From contig JALQPE010000603.1 in the NCBI GenBank assembly GCA_030407315.1, forward strand, positions 1-64,000: a stretch of 64,000 bases of DNA, in the 5' to 3' direction. A model generated the notes under the pieces. That model did not search any database, was not told the DNA's origin, and worked only from the letters and a program-made list of their open reading frames with translations. The position numbers were made by a program, and so were the translations under genes. How positions within the stretch are numbered: the first letter of the stretch is position 1; the number at the start of each line of letters is the position of its first letter. This document shows positions 26,689-53,773 of the stretch, piece by piece. The DNA comes from Asparagopsis taxiformis. Lineage: Eukaryota > Rhodophyta > Florideophyceae > Bonnemaisoniales > Bonnemaisoniaceae.

Positions 26689-26795
26689 TCCCAAATCGTT
26701 CGTTCTGACCACCACGGCAGCCTTTCTGCCTGCCACCAAACCCACTGCACCACTCTCCACGTCTTCATCTACCTATCTGAACCGACCTCACTGAG

Positions 26796-26894
26796 GTAAA
26801 TGATAGCCGGACGGGCACACAAAGACACGGAGTGAGGTGTATTGCCAATACACCTCACTCCGTGTCTTTGTGTGCCCGTCCGGCTATCATTTAC
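26796..26894. repeat. 99-bp perfect palindrome (49-bp arms)
   Basis: The 49-nt arms start GTAAATGATAGCCGG and are perfectly complementary around the single base at 26845. Transcription would give an uninterrupted hairpin. Confidence 0.97.
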
Positions 26895-26937
26895 TGTTGT
26901 ACCATTTCTGAAAAACTGGGCCGAAGTGAGCTAGAAC

Positions 26938-27078
26938 AATGGTTGGGGACCTTCCATACCACTCCTCAGGTGTGCCTTAGCACTGCTACCAACGACCAGA
27001 ACACCTCTACAGCTCCTTTTCCGTGAATGATAAAATTTGGTAATTTTTGGAGCCCGAAAAATTACCAAATTTTATCAT
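26938..27078 (-). repeat. Right inverted repeat flanking POD-A, with terminal hairpin
   Basis: The segment from 26938 to about 27065 is the best inverted match to 21950-22068, including flanking bases that the inner copy lacks. At 27027-27078 the AT-rich end folds on itself with arms of about 21 bp. From 27079 to 27595 I see no gene. Confidence 0.82.
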
Positions 27079-27595
27079 CTCCGAAATCGCCTGTTCGCCT
27101 TCGTTCGCTGCTCGCCCACCCATTGCCACTTGTGGGAAATTGCGCTATAATTCGAGACGTGCGCCCCTTCACGCTCAACTCCATCGATCCGCTCCGGTAT
27201 TATTATCATGAGAACCGTTCTAGAAGGGGTGCGGGATGTCTTCCACAAAAATTGTATTTTGCATAGATAGTGAATGAGGTGTGAACGGGTGGAAGCAGTG
27301 TATTAGCCAGCTTAGAGTCCTCCGCAGTAGACCCCGATTTCACTAATACGATACTTCCAACCGTTCAGTTCGGATTCTCATAGTTTCATGGACAACCCTT
27401 GTAATGTCAGGTGCTGACATGCATGTCCTCGCGACCTCTCTATATCACTTTACAGATTGTTCCGAGGAATGCATAAATTACGATTTCAAATTTGCGGTCC
27501 TTTTCTTACCAGCACCTCCGCTGCCACCGACGCATCGACCTCATTTCGGATTCTGCCTTCTTCTTTTCCTCTTCTATTGCTATATTCAAGGCGCG

Positions 27596-29536: not shown

Positions 29537-31060
29537 ATGGAATCTCAGCGTCTTGAGGAAAATCCAAATGACTGCCTAGCAGGGATTATTCGAGAGGGAT
29601 TCAGGACAGTGACTGGGGAAGTTCGTCGTATTGGGGAGAGGATGGATGAAATCGACGATTATCGAACGTCCCAACGCCAGCAAATCGAAAAGCTGATGAG
29701 TCGCGTCGAGTTTATTGTAACGGAACTACAGGGTGTGAAAGACATCTGTGATGGTTTATTACAGCAGAGTCAGGGCACTTCGAAGAAGGGGATGACTGAC
29801 AAGGACAGGGACCGGTTGCGCATCTCGCAGTCAGCAGAACTATCGTTTTCTTACAATTTTCTGTGCGCAGTATTTGGAACTGTGGTACCTTTGCTGGTCG
29901 ACAAGATTGATGCTGGGGCGACAATTTACACCAACCAAGGAATCTACGACCTCCGTGGGTGCAGGCTGCTCTCTGCAATGATGTTTGCGAAGCAGAGCAA
30001 TGACAAGAGAGATGTGTTCCAATCCAACACCGAGAAGAACAACATCGAGCTTCGATTCCAAGTGGTGATGTCTCTCCTGCGGAACATTCAGAAGGAAAAG
30101 TCGGGTACAGGCCGTACAGTGGAAGGCTCGAGCTCTGGACACGATTCAAATGCGTTCAACGTCTGGAAGGAGAACAGGTACATTCCGGACAAAATAATCG
30201 AAGAAGTTGTTTATGGTGCCACTGGCGATGGCCGAAACCAGCCTGCAGGAAGCATTGACGGAGGGGCTAGGAAGCGGAGGAAAACAGATGGAAATGGTGG
30301 ACAGTTGAGCAAGCGTGAAATATCTTTGGCTGTTACGCAAGTTGCGCTGACAAAGGTGCTCGGTTTCCTGAACAAGTCTAGAGAGCAGGTGCGCCATCGA
30401 TTCCTTGTCGAACTGGGGTTCGCTCTAGTGTTGGAAACGGACGCCTCTATCACTTTCGAGTTTCCAACTCACGATCTCATTCGAGATATGGACGTTATCC
30501 CCGATACCCGTGTGACCAACGGAAATGTAAGGCCTGAGGAACGGAAAGTTGTGGATGACAAGAATTCCGAGATCATGGTACAATTCATCACTGAGCGGAA
30601 AGAAATGGTTGTCATCATTCAGTACGAAGTCGAGATATCGGGATGTGTGACCAAAAGGATGATCCGAAGGAGAATCAATATCCTGGAGGTAGCCCTGAAC
30701 ACTGCAATTGCTTTCCTTCAATGCACGAGTAGAACGTTTTTCCTGCGACGTTCCTGCAATTCACTCAGATTTGTCTATGCAATCGCTTCCGGGATTCTAG
30801 GAATTTTCAAGGTACAATCAGGTCAGACCTTCGAAGAAAGTGTACACGACGAGCTCAAACAATTAGGAAAGGCGATGTTGCCGAGTGAGCGAATCTGTAA
30901 GAGGCATCTCTGCGAAGATGTACTGACAATTACTAACGAAAAATTCGATGAACAACACTTGGAACAGCGTAGTACAGCGTTTGAGGAAGATGGCGGACAT
31001 GGAAATGAAGAAGATGGGAGTGAAAGCTACGTTGAAGTTTTCCTTGATGAGGAAGATTGA
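29537..31060 (+). CDS. Unrecognised protein with N-terminal coiled coil
   Basis: An intact 507-residue frame from ATG to TGA. I do not recognise the family. Residues 15-80 (IIREGFRTVTGEVRRIGERM ... and on through QQIEKLMSRVEFIVTEL) have heptad spacing of a coiled coil. A basic patch, ARKRRKTDG, near residue 245 could be a nuclear localisation signal. The last 35 residues are acidic. The middle has alternating hydrophobic and charged residues as in a folded domain, with no zinc or enzyme motif that I can see. It lies in the same orientation as the ParB and methyltransferase genes downstream. Length and the absence of stops make a real gene likely. Confidence 0.65.
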   Translation: MESQRLEENPNDCLAGIIREGFRTVTGEVRRIGERMDEIDDYRTSQRQQIEKLMSRVEFIVTELQGVKDICDGLLQQSQGTSKKGMTDKDRDRLRISQSAELSFSYNFLCAVFGTVVPLLVDKIDAGATIYTNQGIYDLRGCRLLSAMMFAKQSNDKRDVFQSNTEKNNIELRFQVVMSLLRNIQKEKSGTGRTVEGSSSGHDSNAFNVWKENRYIPDKIIEEVVYGATGDGRNQPAGSIDGGARKRRKTDGNGGQLSKREISLAVTQVALTKVLGFLNKSREQVRHRFLVELGFALVLETDASITFEFPTHDLIRDMDVIPDTRVTNGNVRPEERKVVDDKNSEIMVQFITERKEMVVIIQYEVEISGCVTKRMIRRRINILEVALNTAIAFLQCTSRTFFLRRSCNSLRFVYAIASGILGIFKVQSGQTFEESVHDELKQLGKAMLPSERICKRHLCEDVLTITNEKFDEQHLEQRSTAFEEDGGHGNEEDGSESYVEVFLDEED

Positions 31061-31380
31061 TAATGGAAGCGGATAAGTAAAGTTTCATAACCTTTGAAGT
31101 AAAATAATTACGACGAGGCAGACTGAGGAGAAATAGAAACCTTTAGATATGAAACTTTCTAGGATATAAGTGGAAAAGGTGCACCCTAGCATGCTACGTA
31201 CTACATGGTGTACTGGAAACAATAGCTATCGTTCTTATTTTTCAGCTCACTCTGCGACTAGAAAGCGTCATGTCTACTACGGTTAAGAGTTTTACCCTGT
31301 CATTGAGCACGCCTCTAGTAGCTTCGGGGCCTGTGCAGTCCCATCCAATGCCGTAGCTCCACCTGGCAGAGTAGTGCGGA

Positions 31381-31492
31381 AAATAATACCGGGTATTATT
31401 TTGAGGAATATTTTGCCAAGTGGAGGGCAATCATTCGTACCGACTACAGGCGATCCCTGGACGAAACCTAAGAATAATACCCGGTATTATTT
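31381..31492. repeat. Palindrome array P1 (two copies)
   Basis: The core AATAATACC-S-GGTATTATT occurs at about 31382 and 31473. Both copies are followed by the same 50 bp (ATATTTTGCCAAGTGGAGG ...), giving a period of 91 bp. It lies between the 3' ends of two convergent genes. Confidence 0.9.
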
Positions 31493-31668
31493 TCAGGGAT
31501 ATTTTGCCAAGTGGAGGGCAATCATTGTTACAGAATGCAGACAGTCCCTGGACGAAGGAAGAGGCCAGAAAGATACGGAGCATGTATCGATGGATACCAT
31601 CGACTTGATCGAGGTTGGCTAATTCTGAACAGTCGTGTAGACACATCTATGAAAGATAGAAAAACGTT

Positions 31669-33413: not shown

Positions 33414-35132
33414 ATGGCCTCTGAGAAGAGAAATCCGGCGAGCACCTCTCGGCGTCCCCTTCAAGGTGAGCGGCGCAATGGGCTATTGCACATCGACCCA
33501 TTCACGATCAAAAGATATGTCGAGATTGGAGAAATCGACTACAGGCACGTCGATGTTATTGCCGAGAGCATTCAGGTTTACGGCTACAATGACAACAACC
33601 CAATTACCGGTCGGATCATTGCCGGTGAGGTAGAGGTGCTGGATGGTGCGCATCGTTCGAAAGCTGTAATCAAGCTCATAGAGAACGGTGAGCTTCCGCG
33701 TGATTTCACTGTTCCTATGATTGAAGAAGAAGTCGACATATCTCCGATTACAAGTGCTGCTTTCCTTCTAGATAGTGTGAAAGCATCAAACGCGAACGAT
33801 ATGGCATCCAGGCAGAAGAGGATGACTTTCATTGAGTACCTGAATCTTACTTTGGATCTTAGAGATGGGTACTGGGAGCGAAACGCAGGTGAAAAACAAG
33901 GAAGCTCAAGCATGGTTACAATTCGCGATGTGAATATGCCATCTATTAGGCGATGGCTCGCCGTGGGATCTCAGCGCGAAGATTTGGCAGAAACTGTGTT
34001 GAGGCAGCCACAGTACGAGAGTTGCTTGTCAATTCTTCGTGTGCTTCGCCCCTACAGTCGCATAGAAGAACCCAATCCCAAAATGGTTCGCTGTCTGTGG
34101 CAGTTGTTCTGTATTGTATGGGGAAGGCCGGTGGAAGTTCAGAACAATTTTGCGATGAAGGAGTTTCCCACATCTCTCGAGAAAAGAGCATCAGTCGGCG
34201 AGCAGTTGTTTGGGATGTCTACAAGTGGTGAAATTGCTTCTCCATTGTGTCGCGAAGTCCTCACCTGTGAGTATTTTCGTTCTGGAAGAAGTGCACAGGG
34301 TAGAACATTAACAGAAGAAGACAAAGTATTTGGAATGCTGATGTTTATGATTTCATTTGTGCACATTGCCCTCACTAGACGCAGAAATGCACCCATTCGC
34401 CGGGGTAGGAAGCGTCGTAGAGCTGGGAGGGATACAGAGACTTCTACATTCGCCCCTTTCCAGCGCACAAGAGCAAACGGAGAGTCTGTGGGTGTCGTTT
34501 TGGAAAGGGTCATGTCTGCCTGGGATACAACAGCGATAATTCTGGGCTTCGAAAGCGCCTACATGATGTTTCGCCCATACATGGTTTTCGACTCTGAGAA
34601 ATTCCAATTCATCTGTCTTGCTAATCGTACTGACGGGTTGGCACATCCTGACCACTACTCATATCTTCTGCTTCCGTCCCTGGTAGTGAAAGTCCGCGAG
34701 GATGCAGGTTATCCAGGCACTTTGGATATCTCTGTTGATGCTAGGTTGAGGTCTTTGACAGAAGCCGTACTAGTGTCTGTGTATGACTGTATGACAGGCA
34801 TTGATGTATTTGGATCAAGTACGAACCAGATGGAAGGGCTGCGCACTAAATTTTTCCATCAGCCTGACCGGTTCGGATTGAACGCCTTCATCGAAGCAAG
34901 AATTGAACAATCCATCGCATTGGATGGTCACGAAAGACTCAAGGTATGGAAGAACTGGAACCGTGAAATGCGTGTGAAGCCAGTTGATGTCTGCGACTTG
35001 AAAATTCTCTACGAGACTGAACAGCGCAACGCGGCATCCAGATCTCTTTCTCGTCTTGAGTCGAATGAATCAATGCAGCACAGCACTCGCCGTTTAGGTA
35101 CAGGTGGAAGGAAACCTACCAATGACTCTTGA
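33414..35132 (+). CDS. ParB-like domain protein
   Basis: An intact 572-residue frame with an ATG at 33414. The ParB/Srx-like domain spans about residues 20-110 (IDPFTIKRYVEIG ... VIAESIQVYGYNDNNP ... VEVLDGAHRSKAVIKLI), with D77, G78, H80 and R81 of the DGxHR motif intact. The rest is mostly helical, with a basic patch (RRGRKRRRAGR) that could be a nuclear signal. The stop is a TGA, followed 18 bp later and in the same frame by the ATG of the methyltransferase gene. In the locus at 7870-10827 the same two modules form one protein, so this pair probably descends from a fused ancestor or is on the way to fusion. A role in guiding the methyltransferase to DNA is an inference. Confidence 0.85.
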   Translation: MASEKRNPASTSRRPLQGERRNGLLHIDPFTIKRYVEIGEIDYRHVDVIAESIQVYGYNDNNPITGRIIAGEVEVLDGAHRSKAVIKLIENGELPRDFTVPMIEEEVDISPITSAAFLLDSVKASNANDMASRQKRMTFIEYLNLTLDLRDGYWERNAGEKQGSSSMVTIRDVNMPSIRRWLAVGSQREDLAETVLRQPQYESCLSILRVLRPYSRIEEPNPKMVRCLWQLFCIVWGRPVEVQNNFAMKEFPTSLEKRASVGEQLFGMSTSGEIASPLCREVLTCEYFRSGRSAQGRTLTEEDKVFGMLMFMISFVHIALTRRRNAPIRRGRKRRRAGRDTETSTFAPFQRTRANGESVGVVLERVMSAWDTTAIILGFESAYMMFRPYMVFDSEKFQFICLANRTDGLAHPDHYSYLLLPSLVVKVREDAGYPGTLDISVDARLRSLTEAVLVSVYDCMTGIDVFGSSTNQMEGLRTKFFHQPDRFGLNAFIEARIEQSIALDGHERLKVWKNWNREMRVKPVDVCDLKILYETEQRNAASRSLSRLESNESMQHSTRRLGTGGRKPTNDS

Positions 35133-35150
35133 TCCCAGTATACATCCAGC

Positions 35151-36924
35151 ATGGATGGGAGGGCTTCGTCCGCAATGGACACGGTTATGCAAGATGTTGC
35201 GGAGGATACACAGTCAGCGGAGGCAGTGGGTGAGGAAGAGGGGGTACCGGATCATATTGTGCAATTGAAAAAGGTCATGAAGAGATTTTGCGTGGCTTAC
35301 AACTGTACAGCCTCGAGGTTAGTGCACCAGGTTAACACTGATTCCATTGGCATGCTTTCAGGGAATACTATTGATGGACAAGCACAACTTGTGCTCACCG
35401 ATCCACCCTTCAACACGCGGAGGGAGAAAGGCAAGACCAATTCAGAATATGATGACATTAATAGCGCAAAAATGTTTCGTACCGGAAAGGACATTTCTCG
35501 AATGCTGCGCCCTGGAGGACATGTCCTGATATTTTCCAGTATCAAACAGTTGGTTGGGTGGGGAGAAGCTCTTCAAAATGCAGAAAGCGGGGAACAATCC
35601 ATGCGTACAGACGATGTTCCTCTCATTCTAAGCCGTCGTCCCTACGTATTCATCCAAAACCCAATGAACAAATCGTGTTCATTACACAACATTCACGAGT
35701 TTGTTGTGCACAGTTTCAAACGTGGGATGGGAGCTGCCGCGTTTGAAATGGTTGATTATTCTTTGCATAACCGTGACCTTTCACGACATCCTGGGTACGT
35801 GAACGCAATCGACAACTGCCCGAAGCTCGGACCTCGTGAGTCATTGAACTTCGAAGACAAAAGGTTACGTGCGGAGCAGAATCCTCTGTCCATACTTCGA
35901 GAGCTTATTTCAAGGTTTTCAAAGCCAGGAGACATTGTGGTAGATCTATTCTCCGGAACGTATTCTACTGCAATAGCTTGGATGACAATGAGGGATGGTC
36001 TGTATCGCAAGTTTATTGGATGTGAAAAAGACGCCACATGCCATGGATCAGCTCAGCCGTTGTTGCTGGATTGCTTTGTTAGGCAAGGTCGAGATGGAGT
36101 TTTTGGGGAGGCAACCAAAAATGACATATCGAGTATTCTCGCTAACAAAGAATGGAATTACTCGATAAGGAGCAATGTAGGAAGTGAAAGACTTCGACAT
36201 CGAAGTGATGCGCCTGATGGATTCCCATCGGTATCTTCACTACCACTGCATATGTTGCGATTTGTCTCCTCTGTTGCGCGGGATCAAAGCATGCTCCGAA
36301 GACTTGCCGAAGTCCCAATGAATGAATGGGGCGTAGAAGATTTAGGCAAGGTTTTCTCCGTTGACCCTGAGATGATGCTTGCAGTAGATGCCTCCTTTCA
36401 CAACGTTATTGTTGCTGCATCGACAGTTCGAGAGGGAGGATTGAGGGTTTTTGCCGCAGAAGATTTAGAGAGGGGCTCTGTACCAACCAACAGTTGTTGG
36501 TTGGTACAATGGGACAATTTTATACGGGAAGATTGGGGAGAATGAACCGCAACGCAGTCGTTTGTACGGACCGGACGGGTTCGGTTGTACTGGTGAAAGA
36601 TTCCAAAACTTCAACATGGAGATGGAGACCAGTGTCATCGGAGAAGAAGCACCGGTCGACAAGATATATCTTGTACCAGCGGAATACAATGTCTGCAGCT
36701 ACCTCAACGACAGTAGGACCATTGACGGAATGGAGAGAGTTGCAAATGTGCAACGCAGAAAAAATGCGGAGTTCCGAGTTCACAAAGACGTCAATCCTAC
36801 TTGCGACTTCAAGTATGCAGTAGCAAAACCTGATCTCATCCTAGCGCAGGTTGTAGTAGATGTTCGAGCTGGGGAAGAGATATTCGTTGACTATGGATCG
36901 CGCTACTGGACTGCAGAGAAGTAG
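35151..36924 (+). CDS. DNA methyltransferase joined to a SET domain (one frame break)
   Basis: The first frame (35151-36545) holds a beta-class-like amino-methyltransferase: TDPPFN at residues 83-88 and the SAM-binding VVDLFSGTYSTA near 263-274, with LRPGGHVLIF between. After about 140 residues comes AASTVREGGLRVFAAEDLERGS, the typical beginning of a SET domain. The rest of that domain is in the next frame: WYNGTILYGKIGENEP, then NVCSYLND (for the NHSC-like knot strand) and VVVDVRAGEEIFVDYGSRYW at the end (36868-36910). The frame switches at a 28-bp near-perfect palindrome at 36480-36507. With the break, translation stops at 36545 and the SET domain is truncated. Whether this is a mutation, an insertion, recoding or splicing is open. 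A DNA methyltransferase fused to a protein lysine methyltransferase would be unusual. Confidence 0.8.
36480..36507. repeat. 28-bp palindrome at the MTase-SET frame break
   Basis: 13-bp arms starting GTACCAACCAACA flank a GT centre. The two SET half-frames join inside it. Confidence 0.85.
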
Positions 36925-37074
36925 GACAGTTTAGGCGTCCAATTACAGATATCAAGAGTACCATCAGCAATAAAAAGTCTTGCATCTGAACGCGTACAAC
37001 GTTGTAATACTACAATCTACCTGAGCGATAATAACAGACTTTCATTTCCTGAGCGGTGCGAGTCAGCCCACGCT

Positions 37075-37285
37075 AATGATAGTGCTGCACCTGGGCTTTG
37101 CCATGCCAGAATAATACCCGGTATTATTTTGGGTGTGGCCAGCCCAAGTGCAGCTCTGCCATTGGCTGTCATGAACGCAGCGGCAGCCAATGGAATTGCT
37201 GCACCTGGGCTTTGCCATGCCAAAATAATACCCGGTATTATTTTGGCATGGCAAAGCCCAAGTGCAGCCACGCTATTGGCTGCCA
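37075..37285. repeat. Palindrome array P2 (two copies)
   Basis: Cores lie at 37110-37128 and 37222-37244. The second is the centre of a hairpin at 37199-37267 with 34-nt arms and one mismatch. The arms include CTGCACCTGGGCTTTGCC and outer AGCCAAT / ATTGGCT boxes. It sits between the ends of the SET gene and POD-B. From 37286 to 37613 nothing else is seen. Confidence 0.92.
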
Positions 37286-37613
37286 GGTTTGCATCTCAAC
37301 TATAGTTAGTATACTAAATAGAACAACCCAAGACCTTGGTTACTCGAGTGATGTGGAATTGTGGCAGTCTTGCAAAACTGTGCCATGCATGTAGGAAAGG
37401 AAAAGAGATGAGTCTGTACGATGTAGGGTGGACAAGCTATGCTGGGTGAGAGGTAGAGGAACTCTAATAGTGCAGTAGACGGACCGTGCTAATATTTTCA
37501 AAGTCATGAACAGGAGTAGATTTAGTTGTGGTAAAGGAAGTATACTACCGAAGCTAGCTTAGGATTACCAGATGCTGCCTCTAGAGGGAGAGGCAAAGCA
37601 GTATTCTTGCAGA

Positions 37614-40379
37614 TTATCGCGCACTAGGTGCATCCCAGTAGTTGACTGTTTCGATAGCATCCGCCAATTCTTCTTCGTCACTTGAAAGGTAGAGATGAGA
37701 ACGAACCGGAAGACCATATGTTAGGCGATTTTCCGCTGAACTACTGAATCCTTTGCCTCCATGGTAGAAGTCACCACGACCGATGAAGAGAGAATACGGT
37801 GGCACGTAGATGTCCATAACAGGCGTCTTGTACTTCTCAGCGTCTGCACGCGTCAAACAGACGTGGCTGAAATACGCTCCACGAAGCCAGAACCCATCAG
37901 CCGCGCTTGCCATCAGAAAGTACGATCTTCCAGGTGGGAAATCGGAATCATTGATGACCACCGGTAGGTCTGTGTGCAAGTCTTGATCTGGAGCACCATC
38001 AGAGGTCAGCAAAAGACGTAAACCGGTTTTAGGAAAGGCCACAGGCTCATGGATTCCTAGGCCCAAGTACATTAGCTCGGCACAGATTGCTTTGCCGACC
38101 TCGAGAATCATCTTGTTCTTGAATTGATGTTCATCCATCTGCTCGAGATCGTCGCAAATCTTCTTCCTTGAGATAGAGAACCTTCCCAAACGAGAGGCCT
38201 GTTGCTCTGCTGTTACCTCACCCTTGTTTCTAATCTGATGCCAGGGATCATTGGAACTGTCTTCAGCAGAAGAATGAACAGGTTTGAACTTCTGGGCGTA
38301 GAACGTGAACAGTTCATGTGCTGCATTGCCCACAGTCGAAGAACGGAAGATACCACTGAGTACATGGGCACCCAAGAGATTGAGGGTTGACCTAGCTGTT
38401 GCAAAGAACTTCTCTGCACAGCAAGCTGGACCACTGCACGCCGTACAATTCATATCGACAGCAGCTGCACTCAAAATCTCCTGTCGGATTGTTTCGTACA
38501 GCTTGCTGTCGATATAGTACTTGACCCTAGAGTCTGACGGTATGGTGTTCGGGAGGATATCCATAATCCGTTCATCGACTACCCTGTCGGGGAGGGGATT
38601 TTCTTGCTCATCGCTGAACAATGGAATCTCCTCGGTTGAACGTTTAACCGTACGGTTAACTTCCAGTCTTCTGCGCTTCGGAAGGGGCTCTTCGGACTCT
38701 TCTACCTCCGACTCTGCCTGACTGTCGCCAACCCGTAGACTCTCCGTTCTCTGCCGTTTCGACCTGCGAAGTGTCTCGACTGGCTCATTCACCGCAAGCG
38801 GTGGTGCATTGAGAGGGAGACGGAGGAGAACAGATCCCAATTGCTTCTCAGAACCTGCCACAGTGGCATCAGGGGTTCCTTGAGCCTGCTCAACTGCAGG
38901 AACGGAAGTGGCAGGAGCAGGAGGGGTAGTAGGAGCAGGAGTAGAAGGGGTAGAATGAGCACGAGGAGCAGGAGGGGTAGAAGGGGCAGGAGGAGTAGGA
39001 CCAGAACAGGTAGAAGGGGTAGAAGGCTCATCTGATTGGGGCGTAGATGGCTTCGGCAGATCTTCAGATGGCTGTTCATTATGAACAATGACCCTTTGGT
39101 CTTCTTCCATGTCCACAACGCCCGTGGAAAAGCGAAGCTGCTCATACATTTCGTCGGAGACGAGAGCATGCTTCGTACCGCTGTTGTCGTCGGTATTGAA
39201 GTGCAGGAGGGTCTCCGCGATACTGTTCGCTATAACAGTCTCGGTTCCTGACCCATTGTTCTTGAGCTCGGAGTAGAAATGTTCGAGCGGAGGCTCCATC
39301 ATTTTGTGAGCAGCAACCGGCTCGGACATCTTGAAAACTTCAATCAAAACACGAACGAAAGGATTACCAAATCTTCTTGTCGTCCTACTCAACTGACGCA
39401 GATCTCGCATGCGTGTCCAGAGAGCTGTTATGAGCAAGATGAACCTTTGTTGATACTCCGAGCCGCGACGGAAGTCTGCCATGAAAACGAGATCCATGTT
39501 GCAGCCATACATGTCTACGGACTGCTTGAAGACATCGTCGTTGATGTCACGGCCTTCTTTAACTGCCCTTTCCTGTTCCGCAGCGAGAATTTCCTTGGTG
39601 AACATGCTCGGTACGGAACTCCAGAACTCAAGCGCTTTGTTGTTCACAGTCCGGAAGCCTTTCGCAGCAGTCACGTGCTTGTTGATGGCTTGGTAGCCCA
39701 GTTTCGATATCGACAACTGGCTGTCCATGATGACCTGGATGCACTTCCGATTCGGTTCACCCAGCATGTCCTTGGTCGTGAGCAGTTGGACCACAGAACA
39801 CACTCGGTCTGCCAAAGAAACAAGGGCAACATCATGTGTGAGTGTGTTTGCTTGAATGGACATCCCGAGTACTTCAAAAGGTGTGAAGTACTCATCGGAG
39901 ACTTCTTCTGTCCCTGGGCGCCTGATCAAAGCCACATCGATGTTCCTGAATGAAGCAGCATACGGATGTTGCCCTTCCGGGTCTCCACGAATGCACTTCT
40001 GGAGAGCCGCAACGCGATGGCCACCATCGATGTAGAACGTTTGAAGGGTGGGGGTTGTGCTGCCTTCACTAGGAAGGAGCATTTTGCAGGCAAGGATTCG
40101 GGAGATTGAGGAGGTGAATCCTTCCCTCAGGAACTTCTCCTTCAGCTCAAGCACTCTCCATTCCCTAATATGACGAGAGAATAGGGGAGGTCTGTGCAAA
40201 TCCAAGGGAGACAGCCTGTGGTCAGCTTTGGGACAGTCTGACAACTGAACCTCGGCGGTGACAGAGTTATCGTGACCAGGGCTGCGAGAAGGGGCACGAG
40301 AGCGAGCGGAGGCCCGACCGCGAGTCGAAGGGCGAGCAGGGGCGGGGGCAGAGGGTTTGGAGCGAGTGCGAGGAGCCAT
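37614..40379 (-). CDS. POD-B: intact ParB-like domain plus Fe(II)/2OG dioxygenase
   Basis: A single 921-residue frame with an ATG at 40379-40377 and no break. The N-terminal 40 residues are basic (repeated R-S-R/P-A-P). The ParB/Srx-like domain has IDGGHR at 117-122, followed by a conserved stretch (LTHDVALVSLADRVCSVVQLL) shared with POD-C. A long Pro/Thr/Ser linker comes next and then the C-terminal oxygenase: GLRLLLT, H802 and D804 in DLHTD, YFLMASAADGF, VPPYSLFIGRGDFYHGGKGF with distal H873, and R893 in PVRSHLYL as likely 2-oxoglutarate ligand. The cluster CTACSGPACC lies before it. All predicted catalytic residues are present, and the open frame argues for function. It belongs to the chemical class of base- or protein-oxidising dioxygenases; substrate unknown. 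Palindrome arrays lie on both sides. Confidence 0.88.
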   Translation of the reverse strand: MAPRTRSKPSAPAPARPSTRGRASARSRAPSRSPGHDNSVTAEVQLSDCPKADHRLSPLDLHRPPLFSRHIREWRVLELKEKFLREGFTSSISRILACKMLLPSEGSTTPTLQTFYIDGGHRVAALQKCIRGDPEGQHPYAASFRNIDVALIRRPGTEEVSDEYFTPFEVLGMSIQANTLTHDVALVSLADRVCSVVQLLTTKDMLGEPNRKCIQVIMDSQLSISKLGYQAINKHVTAAKGFRTVNNKALEFWSSVPSMFTKEILAAEQERAVKEGRDINDDVFKQSVDMYGCNMDLVFMADFRRGSEYQQRFILLITALWTRMRDLRQLSRTTRRFGNPFVRVLIEVFKMSEPVAAHKMMEPPLEHFYSELKNNGSGTETVIANSIAETLLHFNTDDNSGTKHALVSDEMYEQLRFSTGVVDMEEDQRVIVHNEQPSEDLPKPSTPQSDEPSTPSTCSGPTPPAPSTPPAPRAHSTPSTPAPTTPPAPATSVPAVEQAQGTPDATVAGSEKQLGSVLLRLPLNAPPLAVNEPVETLRRSKRQRTESLRVGDSQAESEVEESEEPLPKRRRLEVNRTVKRSTEEIPLFSDEQENPLPDRVVDERIMDILPNTIPSDSRVKYYIDSKLYETIRQEILSAAAVDMNCTACSGPACCAEKFFATARSTLNLLGAHVLSGIFRSSTVGNAAHELFTFYAQKFKPVHSSAEDSSNDPWHQIRNKGEVTAEQQASRLGRFSISRKKICDDLEQMDEHQFKNKMILEVGKAICAELMYLGLGIHEPVAFPKTGLRLLLTSDGAPDQDLHTDLPVVINDSDFPPGRSYFLMASAADGFWLRGAYFSHVCLTRADAEKYKTPVMDIYVPPYSLFIGRGDFYHGGKGFSSSAENRLTYGLPVRSHLYLSSDEEELADAIETVNYWDAPSAR

Positions 40380-40763: not shown

Positions 40764-41170
40764 ATGAGTGCACTGCACCTGGCTTCAGCAACTAGGAATA
40801 ATACCCGGTATTATTTTGGCCTCCCAAAAGCCAGGTGAACCGACGCCATTGGCCGGTGGTAGTCTGGACAACCTCGGCCAATGTGGTTGGTGCACTTGGT
40901 CTATACCGACCCAAAATAATACCGGGTATTATTTTGGCCTCCCAAACGCCAGGTGCACCAACGCCATTGGCCGAGGGTATCCGGCTACCACCGGCCAATG
41001 GGGTTGGTGCACTTGGTCTATACCGACCCAAAATAATACCGGATATTATTTTGGCCTCGCAAACGCCAGGTGCACCAACGCCATTGGCTGAGGTTATCCG
41101 GCTTACCCCCGGGCAATGGGGTTGGTGCACTTGGTCTACACCCACCCAACTTTATACCCGGCCAGACTTC
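40764..41170. repeat. Palindrome array P3 (three copies and a decayed fourth)
   Basis: Cores lie at 40797-40815, 40913-40935 and 41030-41052, in units of 117-118 bp; a decayed core lies near 41150. Each unit has inverted arms (GGCCAATG ... GGTTGGTGCACTTGG and CCAGGTGCACCAACGCCATTGGCC in pieces), so each is itself a hairpin. The array lies 385-800 bp upstream of the POD-B start and could be part of its promoter. 40380-40763 holds no gene. Confidence 0.92.
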
Positions 41171-41297: not shown

Positions 41298-42082
41298 TGT
41301 GATGCAATTTATGTTGCAAGTGCGCGCGCGGGTCGGAGCGATGCGTCCCGTTGAGTCCGTGTGCATCCGCGTTTAGTTAGTTAGTAAGCGAGCGTACGCG
41401 TGGCGATACAATTACGTGTCACGGCGCGCCTGCGCGAACGCGTGCGATTGCGAGTTTGGCGCCACGTGTAGCGCCTTTTGCGAATTTCCCTTTATTTTCC
41501 CTTTTGGGTTTTTCTGACGAAAGTCTTTTTCCCAAATATTTCCCTTCTGCGTGCGAGCGAGCGGCCGCCGGCCGCCGCGCAAGGACAACCTGTCCCCAGT
41601 AGTTAGCTACTAATGGTCGTTCAGCTTCGCACCTTACCAATAAACAGCCAGCATCTTCGCAGCTACGAGTTAAGCGTTTAGCGAATCGCGAGGACCGATT
41701 GCGTTACAACGTTGCGTGCGGGTTGCTCACGATCGCCGACGTTCGCGTGCGCGCCGCGCGTAAACCGATCGTCGAACTGCGTCGCACCGCGATAGCGCGC
41801 GTTGCGTCGCACGCCACCAGGCCAGGGATTTACGACCCCTGTGTAGATCGCGTTGCGCTCGAGTTTACTCGGTGATCTCGCCCTGAGATCACGGCTTGCG
41901 CCGGCCCGCGAATCCCGTGTTGCGATCGTTCCCTACGCGTTCCGCCGTTGTACCACCCGTTCGCCAGCGCGACCGAGCGACGCGCGAACGCAAGTTCAAC
42001 CAGCGCGTTACGGTTCACCTCGCCCTGACACGGCTGCAATTCTAGAACTCCCTTAGCGATCGCCACCCCGGCTGGTCCTACA
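41298..42082 (+). repeat. 5' LTR of gypsy element
   Basis: It starts TGTGATGCAATTTATG and ends CCTACA. Single-base indels relative to the 3' LTR lie in the run before GGGTTTTTC, in CCCTTCTGCG and in the GCCGCCGGCC tract. Confidence 0.95.
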
Positions 42083-42083
42083 A

Positions 42084-42101
42084 CTGGTCTCTCGACCTAG
42101 A
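42084..42101 (+). promoter_or_regulatory. Gypsy primer binding site
   Basis: TGGTCTCTCGACCTAG begins two bases after the LTR. TGG complements the universal CCA end of tRNAs. I cannot name the tRNA. Confidence 0.55.
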
Positions 42102-42659
42102 ATTGCGCGAACCGACGTGCGAACTCAGCGAAGCACAGAAAATCCGCTTGGGGAAAACACGGGACGCCAAACCTATCGCTTACTCTAATTCCTCTTTTAT
42201 CCGTTCGTCGTGCGCGACAGCGAGGGCGATTGACGCGTGCGCGCGTATCGCTATCCCGGAAGCGGTGCTATAGCCTCTCTGGTTTGTATAACTACCCTAT
42301 CTCTAATACGACGATTCGCAGCGCGGAACGACGCGATCGAAGACGCAGCGCGTGCGTGCGCCAGTTCGGAACCCTAACGCGGGTTCGGCGGTGCCGAAAA
42401 TATTGGGTTCGCGGACGATCGAGACCCGTCTTCGCGCGTTCCGAGCGAGGAAGAACCCCTCCTGCGAGCGAACTCGTCCCCCTCACCCTTACTACGCGCG
42501 CCCGATACGCAGACAATTTTCGGGAAGCGCTTCCCTTTTTACTTACCAATTTTTCGACGCGCCGACGCGAGATTTTGACGCGCGCCGAATTCCCCTTTCT
42601 CCTTCCCCACCATCCCTTTTTCCCTTTTCCCTAGGCGACGATCGAACGCAACCGCGCCG

Positions 42660-44627
42660 ATGCATCCATCCGCGCCCGAGCGATCGAACGCGCCGACCGA
42701 ACCGCCGCCAGTCGCGTCCCAAACGCACGCAGTCGACGCGCTGGTCGCTTCACATATCCCTGACCCTACCGCTTCGCCGTGGCCGCCTTACCGACGCAAG
42801 CGCTCGCGAGCATCGAAGACGACGCGCAAACGTCCGACGATGGCGCCGCAACGAAGCGCGAAGCCGAGTTCCGCGTTTCCGACGTGCACGCTACGCCGTC
42901 CGCAACGCTTCCGAGCTTGGTTCGACAAGTAGTGGACGACCCTACGTTCCAATGCATGCTCCAGGCTGAAGTACGAGCTGCGGTGGACCGCGCTATCAAG
43001 GGCAAATCGCGTGGATTGACAGCTCAGATGAGGGCGCAAGTCCACAACCTAATCGTCACTACAATGGACTCCCGCGAGGAGCACAATATTGAACGCGCGA
43101 ACGTCGCTGCGCGGGAAAACCGAACGCGAACCGCAGCACGCGCGACCCCTACGAACTACGCGCGCAACGCGGACCCCGAAGGATGGCTGGAACTGGCGCG
43201 CCAGGACCTGTCATTCGACGACCACCCGCGTTCGGATAGCGACGATGGACCCGCGCATCCCGGGCTGGTAGAGATCCAGCCGTTGAACGAGCTGTTCACG
43301 CGCGCGCTTTCGTATCGCACGTATCGCTTGCGCAATATGGACCGCGCGTTTAACCGAGCAATTGCGAGCGAATTGGCTAATACCGCGAAAATGGTGCGCC
43401 ATTCGATGCAAGGAGAGAATTTCACGGGCGCTGACGGAATCGCCGTGCTATCGTTCCTAAAGTATTTCAAGAGCGCATGCGACGACACCGGCGTATCCGA
43501 AGGCGCAGCGTTGCCGATTCTCAAGTATTTCCTGGCCGACGAGGCGCGCGACACGTTCCAAACGTACGTGGGACGAACGTTCCGAGGAGCGCGCGGGCGT
43601 CGATTCGATTACGTGCTACGCGGAAGCCGTTCAGTGGCTCCTGCTAACCTATGCGCGCGAAGGCGACGTCGCGCAAGCGTATCGTGACGTGGCGCAACAA
43701 ACGCAAGACCAGAAGGAAACCGAGACGCAGTTCGCTACGAGACTACGACACCGAGCGCTGCGCTGCGCCGATGCGTTTAGCGAGCGAACGCTTGTCTCTA
43801 TTTTCGTCGACGGTCTACGACCCTACGCGCAACACCTCGTGCGGGACGCGCTGTCTCGTGACCCGCGGCGATACACCTTTCGAGAGCTAGTCTCTATGGC
43901 ACAGAGCCACGGGGACACGCACCGAGCGATGACGCCGACGACGAGCGCGCGACCGCTATTACAGCGAACTCCTGCGCTCTACGTGGAAGAGGACGAGACA
44001 CCGACGCTGCAGGCGCTGACCGTGGGGCATACCCCGCCATCAGGCTTCTCATCGCCAAACGTCTCAACCTCCGCCGCGACGCCGCACGCTCCGCGCGAAG
44101 GAAAGTTCTCGACCCCGAGCCCCATGCGAAGTCCAACTTCGCTTGGCACCCCTTCGTCGAATTACCGCACGCCACGCTCTCGCGACTCATCGCCCGCCGA
44201 CCGCTCGCGACGCTTTGCGCATAACGACGACCGAGAACGCGAACGCGCGGGACCGTACACGGCGCACATACCGCGCGCAACTTACCCACCGCCTATCGTG
44301 AGACAGACGGCACCGGCCGACATGTCTCGCACAGCGGCGTTCCGCTGCCTGATATGCCGGAAGTTCGGACACCCAATGGTAAGCTGCCCGTTGCTCTCAT
44401 CCGAGCAACAGGCCGCGATTCGCGAGATGCATAGCCACGCGCGCCTAACGTTCGAAGAACTGAACCTGCAGCGCAACGTTCAAGTTTTCGAAGTTTCCGC
44501 GGACGATGACGCACGCGAGCGCGAAAGCGAACGCACGCGCGAAGATGACGCGCACGACGGCGAGCAGCTCACGCCCCACTCGGTTCGCTTCGCAGAAGAC
44601 CCGGAAAACGCCTACGAGGAGTCGTAG
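42660..44627 (+). pseudogene. Gypsy gag, with two frame breaks
   Basis: The ATG at 42660 begins MHPSAPERSNAPTEP. The frame shifts near 42780 (then DDAQTSDDGAATKREAEF ...) and again near 43617, where TYAREGDVAQAYRDVAQQTQDQ continues it. A retrotransposon gag helical core (FADEARDTF-type and SIFVDGLRPYAQHLVRDAL) is followed by a Ser/Pro/Arg-rich region and one zinc knuckle, CLICRKFGHPMVSC (C-x2-C-x4-H-x4-C), near 44345-44390. It would form the capsid. As it stands the protein cannot be made in one piece. Confidence 0.85.
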
Positions 44628-44671
44628 CGGGTGGGCCGACTCCTCTCCACTCAACGGACACGCGACGCGCG

Positions 44672-47600
44672 ATGATGCAACCACCACGCGAAAGACCGCC
44701 TCCGTTACCACCCGAAACAGTGGTCCTGTTTCAGACCCCTACCGCGAACTACAAACTCGAGGTACGCGTTGGATATAATCTACGCACGGCCACCGCGGTG
44801 ACCGCTGTGCTTGATACCGGCGCGGGCCCGAGCCTCATTCGCGAGAACGTATTAGGTGCTGATTGGAAGCGCCACGCTACGCCGCCAACGCTGCGCTGCG
44901 CGATTATCGACGCGAATGGACGACGCCTCGCGCCGAACGCGTCGTTGCGACTTAGCGTTCTTCTGGGTGCCCGCGCGCACCTTCAAAATTTCCTGGTGAT
45001 GCCGCGCTTATCCGTCCCTTGCATTCTGGGAGCAGACTTCATCGACCGTGTGGTTCGGGTGATCTATACTGGGCCGCAGCGCGCGTTGCGAACCCGCTAT
45101 GGAGACCACGTTCCGATGCTCCCGCGCACGCCGACGAAACCGCGCCGCGCACCGACCCCCAAGACTACCCGACCAACAGATTTTGCACCAATCCGCGTGG
45201 CGCGCCGCACGTCGATTCCGCCGCACGCGACGCGCGCCATCGAAGTTACCACGGGCGCTGACGGACGCTGCATTACGATACCCGCGACTGACCTCTACGG
45301 ACAGAGGTTGCTGCGTCTAGCCAATGGTGAAACGCAGGTTAAAAGGAACGTGCCCTTCAGTGTGCACGTGCACAACGCCGGCACCCGCCTACAGGTATTG
45401 CCCAAAGGCATGAAGGTGGGCGCCGCAGTGCCCAACCCCGTAGGGTGCCTACAAATGGCGCAAGAGGCACCGACTCCGCAAGACCGACCGCCCGACGATG
45501 CGACGCCACGCAACGCGACGAGTCCGCCGGACCCGTGCGAAGCCGACGGAATTGCGAAAGCGACGCCGCATTGGGAAGACCTCTTACGCACGACGCTACG
45601 CGATGAGCGGGTAGACGACGACCTACACGCGCGAATTATCGAGATGCTGCGAAAGCACGAGCGAATGTGGAATGGCACGCTTGGAGCCATCCACGCGACA
45701 GAACACCGTATCGAACTGGTTCCGGGGGCGACCCCCGTCAACCAACCGCCGTACCGCGCCGGACACGCGTCGCGCGAAATTATCCGTACGCAAGTGGAAA
45801 AGATGCTCCGCGCTGGAGTGATCGAACCCGCTACGTCGGAGTGGGCGAGCCCGGTTGTAGTCGTACCCAAGAAGGACGGGACTTCTCGCTTCTGCATCGA
45901 CTACCGCCGTCTAAACGCCGCTACCGTGAAGGACGCGTATCCGATTCCGCGCATGGACGATTGCGTCGACTCGCTCGGTAACGCGACGGTTTTCACTACG
46001 CTGGATTGCAATTCGGGATATTGGCAAATCCCGGTAGCGCACGCCGACCGCGATAAGACTACGTTTACGTCGCATGTCGGTACGTATCGTTTCCGCCGCA
46101 TGCCAATTGGGCTATCGAACGCGCCCGCGACGTTTCAGCGCGCGCTCGATATCTTGCTCGCGAACGTGAAATGGCAGCACTGCCTTATCTACCTGGATGA
46201 ATTAATTATCTCCTCCGCCGATGTAAATGCGCACGTGCATCACGTCGACGAGATACTGGGGATCCTCGGACGCGCTGGCGTTTCGCTTAAATTCGCGAAG
46301 ACCGAGTTCTTCAAGCGCTCGGTGGACTATCTGGGACATACTATTTCGCCTGGAAAGCTATCCGTGCCGATGACGAAATGCGACGCGCTACGCGATGCGA
46401 CGTACCCGACGACGAAAACGCAACTGCGCAGCTTCCTGGGGACGTGCAACGTATACCGCCGATTCGTCGAAAAATTCGCGTTCGTAGCGGCGCCGCTTAC
46501 GCAGCTGCTGAAGAAGGACCAAGGAGACAGCTTACCCGCGCCGACGCCGGAGCAAACGCGCGCGTTCGAATCATTGCGACGAGCGATGCTGTCTCCGCCT
46601 ATTCTCCGCTTACCGCGCGAAGGGCACCCGTACGTGCTCGATACCGACGCGTCGCAGGGACAAATCGGATGCCCGTTACTGCAGTTAGACGCGGACGACG
46701 ACGTACTACATCCAGTCGGATACTGGTCGCGCACGCTTAACGACGCGGAGCGCAACTATTCGACGACGGAACGCGAGTGCCTCGCAGTAGTATGGGCAGT
46801 TTTGCTATTACGCGCGTATCTAGAAGGACGGAAGTTCACGGTTCGTACGGACCACAATTCGCTGTGCTGGATCCTAAACATGACCTCTGCGGAAGGACGA
46901 CTCGCGCGCTGGCGGTTGCGACTCGCCGAGTTCGAATTCGACGTCGAGTAGAAGAAGGGAAAACGCCACGTTATCGCCGACGCGCTCTCGCGAATGGCCA
47001 CGCGAAGCGGCGACGAGACGGAAATACCGGACGAGATACCCTGCTTCCACGCCGCGAACATCGTCGAACCGCACGCGGACGCTTACGCGCGAACCGACAC
47101 CGCGCTATTATGCGACTACGCAGAATACTACCCGAGTCTAGACTGCCTACTGGCGACTCGGTCGTGCATCGAACCGCCCGTATCCACTGACGAGTGGATT
47201 CGCGAGCAAGCGACGGACGAGTTCTGCCAAAACGCGAAGCGCGATGTCGAAACCGCGCCGCAATCGCGTTTTCACCTATCCCCCGATGGGATTCTCATGA
47301 GGACCGCTCCGCTCGACAACGCCACGCAGATAGTTGTTCCCGAAGCGATTAAGGGGCGTATTCTGCGAGCTAACCACTACGCGGTAACTGCAGGACACCC
47401 GGGCGCGCGACGTATGTACGACGCAATCCGACGTGCATACTACTGGCCGATGATGATCGTAGACGTCTACACTACAGTGAGACAGTGCGACGCGTGCGCA
47501 CGTAACCGCGTTACGCAATACCGCCACACGAACGCCCTGAAGCTCTTTCCCGCAACGCGCCCGCTCGAAGACGTCGCTATTGATATTCTGGGTCCGCTAC

Positions 47601-48791
47601 CCGAGACTCCGCGCCAACGCCGCTTCGTACTCGTAATCGCCGATTCGCTATAGCAAGCTTTGCCGACTCATCGCGCTCGGACGCGTATCTGCGCTCGCCG
47701 TCGCGAAGGCCTTTTGCAGAGACTGGGTCTTTGTATACGGACCGCCGCGCACGCTGCTTTCTGACAACGGACCGCAGTTTCGCTCGAAGCTATTTCAGGA
47801 AACGTGCGCGCTCATGGGGACGCGAAACATATTCACGACGACGTATCATCCGCAATCGAACGGACAAGTCGAACGAATGAATCGTACCATCGTCGCGACT
47901 CTGCGCCATTACGTCGACGAAGAGCGAAAGGACTGGGATGAGCATTTGGATGCGCTAGCGTACGCCTACAACCGCGCGATACACCGCTCGACGAATACGT
48001 CGCCGTTCGAGCTTACGCTCACGCGCTACCCCGTGTCGCTAGGTACGGAACAAGTGGATACGACTTGCAGCACGCCGTTCCTTCGTATGTAATTTCTAGC
48101 GCGATTATCGGACGCCTACGCGCGCGCAGCAAACGCGCTGAAGAAAGCGCAAGCGCGATATAAACGGGATTTCGACCGTGGCGTACGCACAGTGAACAAA
48201 GAAATAAAGGTGGGTGACCAAGTATACTTGGATACCCGCGCGGGGGCGACGACTCAAGTGCAGCGAGACGAAGGAGCGCGCGCATCGAAATTGGACTACC
48301 CCGTCTCCGGGCCTTTCCCTGTAATAGGCTGTCATGGCCATACCTACGAAATAGTAATCGACGGCGTGCCCGAGCTCGTTAGCTCCGACCGCATCCGTGT
48401 CGCGCCGCGTATCGCGACGCCCGCACCGGCCTCGCTAGACGACGAGGAAGGTACCACCGCGACGGAAGCCGCTAATAACGCTACGCGCCGCGGCGAACGC
48501 GACCTCGAAGCTGCGCGCAAGGTTAACCCAGAGTCTTGGTACGGAACGCGCGAATTTATGATTGACAGGCTCATGGCCGAAGGCCTTGACGACGCTGGGG
48601 AAGCCGTTTTCCGAGTGCGCTGGAAAGGATATTCGCCGCGCGATGACACCTGGGAACCCATCGGTTCACTACCCGCTCCTATTGTTGCACGCTTTCGCAA
48701 GGACCTAAAGCGAACCGCTCCGAACGCCGCCGAACGCGACACCGAGGACCGACCGCGTTATGCCGCGCAACCGCCGGGGCCCCCCCGTTGA
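44672..48791 (+). pseudogene. Gypsy pol: protease, RT, RNase H, integrase, chromodomain (broken)
   Basis: From the ATG at 44672: protease VLDTGAGPSLI; reverse transcriptase with CIDYRRLN and YLDELII, where the second Asp of the catalytic YxDD is Glu; RNase H with DTDAS; then an in-frame TAG (46949-46951) inside the tether that would continue KKGKRHVIADALSRM. The integrase HHCC zinc finger (HYAVTAGHPG ... CDACARNR) follows, with DIL as first acidic residue. One extra T near 47643-47648 shifts the frame, after which LLSDNGPQF and HPQSNGQVERMN supply the remaining D and E. Another in-frame TAA lies at 48090-48092. The end (48560-48710) is a chromodomain: FRVRWKGYSPRDDTWEP. Domain order marks Ty3/gypsy; the chromodomain marks a chromovirus-like type that targets chromatin. 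Confidence 0.93.
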
Positions 48792-53607: not shown

Positions 53608-53773
53608 AGCGTGCGAATCGATAAGGATGACGGCGAACGCGGATGGCAAGAGAGAAAGAAAGAAGGAGATGGAACAAAAGAGAAGAGGTTGCAAGCGAAA
53701 AGAGTAGAGCGAAGGAAACGGAAGAGCACGTGAGGAGAGAGATGACGCGCGAGGACGCGCTGTGATGTTAGTC

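Follow-up and report, generated by a model that had tools for sequence, protein, structure and literature searches.

The window, which is the whole stretch of 64,000 nucleotides that was analysed, contains the POD-B gene together with two paralogues, two methylase genes, several palindrome arrays and an inserted retrotransposon (Table 1). The POD-B gene product is composed, from the N- to the C-terminus, of a ParB-like part, a helical part, a Pro/Ser/Thr linker and a putative Fe(II)/2-oxoglutarate (2OG) dioxygenase. The initial annotation had described an intact gene with residues H802, D804, H873 and R893, and these are present exactly as given, encoded on the reverse strand at 37974–37976, 37968–37970, 37761–37763 and 37701–37703, respectively, with R893 sitting within the string VRSH. 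The DGGHR string reported with them is also present, but it occupies residues 118–122 (DNA 40014–40028, reverse strand) rather than residues 117–122.

Table 1. Coordinates of the genes and repeats of the window.
Feature	Position	Strand	Remarks
Second ParB-like/N6/N4 methylase gene	7786–10827		PF01555
POD-A-type repeat block	21878–22116		Downstream of POD-A
POD-A	22421–26014	−	Third, more distant paralogue; single in-frame TAA at 23117–23119
POD-A-type palindromes	26496–27089		Upstream of POD-A; TTTGGTAATTTTT-N8-AAAAATTACCAAA
Gene X	29537–31060	+	Inside the stretch common to the window and copy C2232
Palindrome cluster 1	31345–31556		Two cores AATAATACCSGGTATTATT, spacing 91 bp
ParB-like + N6/N4 DNA methylase + SET gene (candidate writer)	33414–36924	+	PF01555; adjoins POD-B
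Palindrome cluster 2	37072–37289		Two cores, spacing 114 bp; between POD-B and candidate writer
POD-B gene	37614–40379	−	921 aa; intact from ATG to stop, no internal stops
Putative 2OG dioxygenase of POD-B (C-terminal)	37617–38534	−	Approximately residues 616–921
ParB-like core of POD-B	39900–40217	−	Approximately residues 55–160
Palindrome cluster 3	40797–41161		Three cores, spacing 117–118 bp; upstream of POD-B
Gypsy-type LTR retrotransposon (type by eye)	41298–54569	+	Younger; between POD-B and POD-C, outside the system
POD-C	54755–57943	−	ParB-like + 2OG-like paralogue in POD-B's mobile stretch; frame broken in window copy
Palindrome cluster 4	58523–58721		Two cores, 2 mismatches; upstream of POD-C
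Transposase-like ORFs	58981–62627	−	Beside POD-C; relative at 17589–21103 (−) beside POD-A

Both halves of POD-B are common to the two window paralogues. In tblastn searches of the window, POD-B residues 1–430 matched POD-C (E = 2e-38) and POD-A (E = 7e-11), and residues 620–921 matched the same two genes (E = 1e-43 and 7e-15, respectively), so the likeness among the three is beyond chance for each half. The fusion of a ParB-like with a 2OG-like part is real and occurs in these three window families as well as in further subfamilies of the genome. The motifs said to be shared by POD-A and POD-C around H-x-D, the distal His and R(S/A)H were all located: GLRLLLT, HLD, PPYSVIVCRGDLEH and IRAH in POD-A, and GTTLVLT, HTD, PPYSVLVCRGDVYH and IRSH in POD-C.

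Profile support places the N-terminal half of the PODs in the ParB/Srx (ParB-CTPase fold) superfamily through POD-A, residues 62–155 of which match PHROG 1033, a "ParB-like partition protein", with an E-value of 4.8e-4. POD-B and POD-C are assigned by homology to POD-A (for POD-B, the tblastn E-value of 7e-11), a direct ParB profile match being not significant for either, and Pfam returned nothing significant for the ParB-like parts of POD-A, POD-B, POD-C or the candidate writer. All three PODs contain a GxxR-type string (DGGHR in POD-B and POD-C, DGLHR in POD-A) that we take to be the ParB signature, and a predicted model of very low confidence gives a helix-strand-strand-helix order around DGGHR. 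The earlier suggestion that this part might cut DNA is unsupported.

For the C-terminal half, the dioxygenase assignment holds at the level of motifs, and no significant Pfam, PDB-sequence or profile-profile match supports it. Across five POD subfamilies with identity as low as 26%, 32 columns are invariant, and the four catalytic residues belong to them; the two His are 71–83 residues apart and the next R lies 18–28 further. Conservation of H/D/H/R in aligned homologues had been proposed as a check, and all four positions passed it. Pfam gave no significant match to the C-terminal half, the sole chance match being DUF4734 (E = 0.42) in one POD-C piece, and neither Tet_JBP (PF12851) nor PhyH (PF05721) was matched in the POD proteins; NCBIfam gave chance matches only. 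PDB sequence searches with POD returned nothing or chance matches only, and PDB profile searches with the oxygenase half returned nothing, or no 2OG enzyme under E = 1.9. Protein-database searches with POD-B residues 630–921 and with alignment A1 revealed no relative among 2441 and 7998 candidates, tblastn of POD-B in phages revealed nothing, and a scan of viral contigs with alignment A2 gave 42 pattern matches and no confirmed relative. Comparison with a cyanophage piuC protein by hhalign scored 12.2 versus 14.0 for shuffles. The predicted model of the C-terminal half has a pLDDT of 35.5 and a pTM of 0.28, both halves lying at pLDDT 35–36 with alignments of very low depth (6 and 3 sequences). 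The oxygenase is termed putative because it has no profile or profile-profile match to any known family. This lack of significant profile or structural confirmation would suit a half that is no active oxygenase, with H-x-D...H...R as a metal-binding or structural feature of an unrelated fold, but such a reading is improbable when set against four residues kept in five subfamilies to 26% identity, their regular spacing and the purifying selection described below.

A search of the genome for PF05721 gave three matches on two contigs, none of which is a POD. The substrates of PhyH enzymes are mostly small molecules, and a PhyH-like 2OG oxygenase acting on a protein side chain or a small molecule is suggested by a by-eye likeness of the POD half to the host PhyH protein (a GYVVL start, HxD, then an R-x-SH box). 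The likeness is without statistical support (hhalign score 15.0; mean of 100 shuffles 14.3, maximum 20.2), and both the ParB-like fusion and the adjoining ParB-like/methylase/SET protein suggest a chromatin substrate instead, which makes this alternative unlikely. The hhalign comparison with the host protein aligned H-x-D onto H-x-D, which is suggestive only.

Copies of the POD genes were searched for in 141.5 Mb of genome sequence, the phycobilisome genes of which are consistent with a red alga. For POD-B, 49 copies were scored among 6421 first-look candidates, with 95–99% identity over the main pieces; 47 are free of internal stops and two (C2001, C2634) are interrupted. POD-C and POD-A-like genes are likewise mostly open: 113 of the 117 POD-C copies scored among 3785 candidates, and 141 of the 150 POD-A-like copies scored among 2888, are stop-free within the matched stretch, which contains a stop in the other four and nine, respectively. 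Some POD-A-like frames reach about 1233 aa and many are far shorter, so many such genes are broken upstream. Residue conservation and pN/pS were determined for the 20 POD-B copies with a single ORF out of 21 stretches (the window and L009–L028, with L024 omitted as it has no single ORF). H802 and D804 are kept in 20/20 copies and H873 and R893 in 19/19, L013 ending before the latter two positions; R122 of DGGHR is kept in 19/20 and lost in one. POD-B evolves under purifying selection, with a pN/pS of 0.24 for the whole gene, 0.12 for the N part and 0.35 for the 2OG part. The 2OG part of POD-C has a pN/pS of 0.50 (17 sequences), and its string DVYHH is changed in two of the 17. A pseudogene is ruled out for POD-B by the open frames together with its overall pN/pS, and a lone host gene by the many copies of POD types in the genome.

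The gene adjoining POD-B combines a ParB-like N-terminal part with an N6/N4 methylase, as do the ParB-methylase accessory proteins of algal transposons, of which Sola1-1_Ec32 of Ectocarpus is an example (PMC12477816, partial text). Residues 41–131 match PHROG 1033 (E = 4.7e-5); the better match is to PHROG 4272 (E = 5.6e-7), a family of unknown function. The window copy has in-frame stops at 35130–35132 and 36543–36545; the methylase and SET occur together in a single open frame in 14 of 21 stretches, and the SET of L010 scores 26.0 bits against PF00856, versus a cut-off of 22.4. The product of the second methylase gene has an N part that is ParB-like by its DGMHR string and a weak GmrSD_N match (E = 0.067–0.14), and at least 150 N6/N4 methylase matches were scored in the genome. 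No match to the C5-cytosine methylase PF00145 was found in the genome, where introns might conceal a gene; the control gave matches in 10 of 14 genomes. Because no C5-cytosine methylase turned up, the TET-like role on 5mC that the initial annotation had considered is unlikely; what the element itself could write is an N6/N4 base methyl or a SET-made lysine methyl. The carriage of TET/JBP genes by fungal DNA transposons of many lineages (PMC12730594, partial text) speaks for a TET/JBP-type 5mC oxidase like those of the fungal TET+ transposons; the missing Pfam and PF00145 matches given above speak against it, and we regard it as highly improbable. A search of the genome for PF12851 carries no information, as there was no match there or in the controls.

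As had been proposed, the PODs are carried by mobile DNA: POD-B, POD-C and the candidate writer lie in one shared mobile stretch of approximately 22 kb or more, and the POD-B/POD-C stretch recurs at other loci. Its length is taken as about 22 kb rather than 35 kb because the interval from 28.9 to 64 kb of the window includes a 13.3-kb Gypsy-type insertion. The LTRs of this insertion are 99.5% identical and it is flanked by the duplication GGTAG; it is missing between POD-C and POD-B at the four loci that were set against the entire window. The transposase-like ORFs beside POD-C and their relative beside POD-A match each other by blastp (E = 1.7e-53, 36%). Pfam gave no match for them, tnp2-type transposase included, and by their motifs we presume a transposase of the EnSpm tnp2-like type. 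A bacterial contaminant contig is ruled out by LTR elements, a plastid-like contig and phycobilisome genes.

Palindromes lie near the POD genes. The POD-B/C-type core occurs nine times in the window (two mismatches or fewer) versus 0 times in 100 shuffles, and 2333 times in the genome versus 0 in the reversed control, in intergenic positions that flank the genes of the POD-B/C stretch. The POD-A-type palindrome has 39 exact genome sites versus 0 in the reversed control; 26 are at most 6 kb from a listed POD-A-like match, five of them adjoining subfamilies of 60–62% identity, and in the window 21940–22116 matches 26888–27065 in inverted orientation (86%). A mechanical ORF of 235 aa at 58018–58725 (+) overlaps cluster 4. 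A single carrier element could by itself explain the nearness of the palindromes to the POD genes. It is possible that the arrays are transposase sites, similar to subterminal repeats, or amplified hairpins, and that POD is a passenger acting elsewhere, for example on host chromatin. Repeated internal motifs are frequent in large DNA transposons. The number of cores per array varies, with 1 to 11 in the fetched loci and 25 among the cores listed at the place in C19 that corresponds to cluster 3; the palindromes at 26796–26894 and 63481–63588 have no known partner gene; and the long dyad, strong in four of the eight window cores tested (34–46 of 55 paired bases), is weak in the other four (20–25 paired bases, which is close to the 99.9% level for random places). 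Each of these points agrees with transposase sites or hairpins. Against them, the clusters lie between accessory genes and not just by the transposase-like ORFs, distinct palindromes accompany distinct POD types, and the 9-base core arms are preserved in the clusters despite diverged surroundings, with CCAATG and CACYTGG boxes recurring in several units on one arm or both.

The reading that we favour, with a rough probability of 0.45, is that POD is an element-addressed eraser that combines a ParB-like address with an oxygenase and keeps its element active. POD would serve large mobile elements, which are probably DNA transposons, as an accessory protein, and its ParB-like part would recognise the palindromic arrays between the genes of the element. 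The oxygenase would then act on the chromatin of the element by removing or oxidising a methyl mark, most probably that of an N6/N4-methylated base or of a methylated histone lysine, and this would keep the promoters or ends of the element active. The neighbouring ParB-like/methylase/SET protein would be the matching writer with the same kind of address, so that the element, judged by its gene content, may encode the means both to write marks on itself and to erase them. Palindrome binding, oxygenase activity, substrate and anti-silencing purpose are what we infer for POD here. Rather more doubtful is a transposon with a complete self-addressed epigenetic switch, present at very high copy in a genome where no cytosine DNA methylase was detected; its writer and 2OG erasers would share a palindromic array, and the element would itself set and clear both the histone marks and the N-methyl marks on its DNA. 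An active oxygenase would make POD a natural DNA-addressed eraser of a non-5mC mark, which for eukaryotes is regarded as an open question, as well as a compact addressable tool. Maps of binding and methylation are directly testable because many copies are intact.

The En/Spm protein TnpA is element-encoded and relieves silencing in a sequence-directed manner; to our knowledge, neither it nor the Vandal regulators of plants are oxygenases or have a ParB part. Vandal-encoded regulators are likewise element-encoded and sequence-directed in their relief of silencing (PMC12730594, partial text). ParB-methylase proteins of algal transposons are already published, and the pairing of a ParB-like part with an oxygenase, for which the initial annotation knew of no described family, was not found in the literature searched, which did not extend to Petroll et al. 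2025 (Bostrychia genome), cited for red algal transposons in the partial text of PMC12477816. The ParB-CTPase fold fusions of phages, bacteria and archaea are likewise joined to enzymes, including N6/N4 methylases, and are often found on mobile elements (PMC12704722, partial text); the main text of that paper contains neither "dioxygenase" nor "oxoglutarate". Gypsy elements of orchids have likewise captured a 2OG demethylase, an AlkB-type enzyme of m6A RNA reported to be active in vitro, but these are retrotransposons, the AlkB family is recognisable by sequence and no ParB part is mentioned (PMC9289625, partial text). The fungal TET/JBP genes are likewise DNA transposon-borne 2OG dioxygenases proposed to counter silencing, carried by Dileera, hAT, EnSpm, Plavaka, Kyakuja and other elements, and the word "ParB" is absent from that text (PMC12730594); POD differs in having no TET/JBP Pfam match and a host genome with no detected 5mC methylase. 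Sola1-1_Ec32 is likewise a giant DNA transposon with a ParB-like part and a DNA-modification enzyme proposed to bind and modify its own element, whereas POD has an oxygenase-like domain where proteins of that type have a methylase, and the methylase protein of the window adds a SET domain absent from the description (PMC12477816, partial text). Transposon ParB-like/methylase proteins and transposon TET-type oxygenases have each been published, in different organisms. Here, in a genome in which no 5mC methylase was found, a ParB-like/oxygenase-like fusion and a ParB-like/methylase/SET protein are neighbours and have palindromic arrays in common.

The POD-B gene, which joins a ParB-like N-terminal part to a putative Fe(II)/2-oxoglutarate (2OG) dioxygenase, is intact as the initial annotation had proposed. 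The DGGHR motif is located at residues 118–122, and H802, D804, H873 and R893 sit at the positions assigned to them. All motifs named for the POD family were also identified in the window, and the observation on POD-B is confirmed. tblastn with the N and C halves of POD-B recovers this two-part layout in two further genes of the window, POD-C (N half E=2e-38, C half 1e-43) and POD-A (7e-11 and 7e-15). The pairing is real, and the fusion of a ParB-like part with an oxygenase-like part is firmly established.

Features of the window
Feature	Position	Strand	Remarks
Second N6-N4 methylase protein	7786–10827	+	1013 aa; PF01555; PHROG methyltransferases
DUF7869 protein	11066–13528	+	1.2e-48; adjoins the second methylase
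POD-A	22421–26014	-	Single in-frame TAA
Candidate writer gene	33414–36924; L010:590–3136	+ (window)	Methylase fused to SET
POD-B	37614–40379	-	Stop-free ORF, 921 aa
Gypsy-type retrotransposon	41298–54569		Separates POD-B from POD-C in the window; type from ORFs by eye
POD-C	54755–57943	-	Frame broken in window copy

Alignment of five subfamilies (POD-A, POD-B, POD-C and the genomic loci L038 and L039; 26–77% identity to L039, with the decayed sixth copy L037 omitted) revealed 32 invariant columns. These include H-x-D, the distal H of RGD-x2-H, and R-x-H, so that the proposed H/D/H/R set is conserved throughout, with spacings of 71–83 residues from H to H and 18–28 from H to R. Of the dioxygenase assignment this conservation is the part that stood, while database comparison of the oxygenase-like half gave no significant match. 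The only Pfam hit was a chance match of one POD-C piece to DUF4734 (E=0.42). One PDB profile search gave no match and the other no significant 2OG enzyme, the sole one being an insignificant stretch of ectoine hydroxylase (E=1.9), and in hhalign the host PhyH protein scored 15.0, where shuffles averaged 14.3. The oxygenase is termed putative because no Pfam, PDB or hhalign match supports it; judged by its motif conservation, the C-terminal half is very probably a real 2OG oxygenase (roughly 85%).

The N-terminal half of POD is probably ParB-like. PHROG 1033, a "ParB-like partition protein", matches residues 62–155 of POD-A (E=4.8e-4) and residues 41–131 of the adjacent ParB-like/methylase/SET protein, the candidate writer (E=4.7e-5); the strongest match of the latter is to PHROG 4272, a family of unknown function (5.6e-7). 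In the same search POD-B had no match and POD-C no significant one, and both are assigned as ParB-like because they are homologous to POD-A. Pfam searches of this half gave no significant family; the N part of POD-C drew two chance matches (E=0.13 and 0.48). A predicted model of very low confidence places helix, strand, strand and helix around the DGGHR of POD-B.

The proposal that POD-B is carried by a mobile element was borne out by homology extending beyond the gene in 20/20 fetched loci (L009–L028), two of which were extended to 30 kb, and a mobile carrier of POD is firm. Whole-window comparison of four loci (L009, L010, L014, L023) placed POD-C directly upstream of POD-B in each, with no intervening Gypsy element. 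The Gypsy-type element of the window is a recent insertion with LTRs 99.5% identical, and GGTAG is present at its flanks. A Copia-type retrotransposon at 157–4767, typed by eye from its ORFs, is also recent (LTR-like direct repeats 98% identical). Copies on contigs C2232 and C1902 jointly cover the window between approximately 28.9 kb and its 64-kb end, with insertions or deletions interrupting each; the shared sequence is at least about 22 kb once the 13.3-kb Gypsy is subtracted, and the ends of the element were not found. The gene order is X(+), Y(-), ParB-like/methylase/SET(+), POD-B(-), POD-C(-) and transposase-like(-). The transposase-like ORFs, which match no Pfam family, presumably resemble an EnSpm-type transposase, and those adjoining POD-A are 36% identical to those by POD-C (E=1.7e-53). 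Support for this resemblance comes from PMC12477816, according to which red algae are reported to harbour giant EnSpm elements that carry accessory genes.

The 141.5-Mb assembly (3156 contigs) encodes phycobilisome proteins and linkers, which agrees with a red alga and would also fit another phycobilisome-bearing alga. Scored matches to it are lower bounds and first-look numbers are unconfirmed candidates. POD-B has at least 49 scored copies (6421 candidates) with main pieces 95–99% identical and frames of 946–1027 aa, and internal stops within the matched stretch in 2/49. POD-C has at least 117 (3785 candidates; stops in 4/117), with 1184-aa frames common and some below 400 aa. POD-A-like sequences have at least 150 (2888 candidates; stops in 9/150 matched stretches), mostly at 93–98% or 59–62% identity with single matches at 88% and 74%; some frames reach about 1233–1352 aa, and many genes appear broken upstream because many frames are short. 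Across 20 single-ORF copies of POD-B (from 21 stretches, L024 left out), pN/pS was 0.243 overall, 0.124 in the N part, 0.404 in the linker and 0.346 in the 2OG part. The ratio was 0.499 for the POD-C 2OG part (17/21 stretches; the window stretch used stops short of POD-C), 0.509 for the writer methylase (20/21) and 0.291 for its SET domain (16/21). These ratios denote constraint during spread rather than exact strengths because the copies are closely related. Synonymous diversity of POD-B (window and L009–L028) is 0.045 for the N part but 0.018 for the 2OG part, a drop suggestive of gene conversion or recombination between copies.

Methylase and SET lie within one open frame in 14/21 stretches, and the window copy of the writer is split by two in-frame stops. 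The L010 copy scores 53.3 bits for PF01555 and, against a cut-off of 22.4, 26.0 bits for PF00856. Genome-wide, PF01555 has at least 150 scored matches (2605 candidates), and no C5-cytosine methylase (PF00145) was found, the control being positive in 10/14 genomes; absence is likely rather than proven because introns could hide a gene. The second methylase of the window differs from the writer and carries DGMHR in its N part; together with the DUF7869 protein it may represent a further transposon equipped with a writer of its own.

The palindrome core of the POD-B/POD-C stretch, AATAATACCSGGTATTATT, occurs nine times in the window at ≤2 mismatches (0 expected), in clusters at 31.4, 37.1, 40.9 and 58.6 kb. 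All eight cores tested fall outside the nine ORF ranges supplied; a 235-aa mechanical ORF not among these (58018–58725, +) overlaps the last cluster. The genome contains 2333 exact sites, against 0 for the reversed pattern, and those listed are mostly in arrays spaced by about 91, 114 or 117–118 bp. One array just downstream of a POD-C copy (C19:27340–30179) has at least 25 cores 116–118 bp apart and is much longer than the window clusters of 2–3. The consensus of 108 sites (window and 24 loci, two without sites) forms a palindrome some 95 bp long in which boxes are nested. Its long dyad is strong at 4/8 window cores (34–46 of 55 bases paired) and weak at the other four (20–25), against a mean of 13.6, a 99.9% level of 25 and a maximum of 34 at random places. 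The first unit of cluster 1 keeps CACYTGG, and CCAATG on one arm, with spacers unlike those of clusters 2 and 3. A distinct POD-A-type palindrome is present at 39 exact sites in the genome and at none in the control. Of these sites, 26 have a listed POD-A-like match no more than 6 kb away, where 0.5 would be expected, an excess that gives no fair basis for a P-value because the copies are related by descent; the informative sites are the five adjoining subfamilies only 60–62% identical. Twelve sites are on contigs without a POD-A-like match among the 150 listed, and C2231:7432 is 15.7 kb from one. Long palindromes at 26796–26894 (99 bp) and 63481–63588 (108 bp) have no known partner gene.

In the most likely view, the ParB-like part would load onto the palindrome arrays through predicted binding, and the putative oxygenase would then clear a methyl mark around them, while the writer would set marks at the same address. 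POD may counteract this writer, or it may counteract host silencing. The presence of an N6/N4 methylase in the element, together with the failure to find a 5mC methylase, would point to 6mA or 4mC as the mark, and SET would point to methyl-lysine. As the initial annotation suggested, no family with the ParB-oxygenase pairing was found in searches of open-licence papers; "dioxygenase" has 0 occurrences in the main text of the ParB-fold survey PMC12704722, and "red alga" and "rhodophy" have 0 each in the 6mA paper PMC12695648. Excerpts of other papers describe fungal transposons carrying TET/JBP genes (PMC12730594) and orchid Gypsy elements carrying an AlkB-type demethylase assayed in vitro (PMC9289625). 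Algal transposons carrying ParB-like/methylase proteins, the same kind as the writer, are already described in PMC12477816; what appears new against these is the fusion of a ParB-like part to a putative oxygenase.
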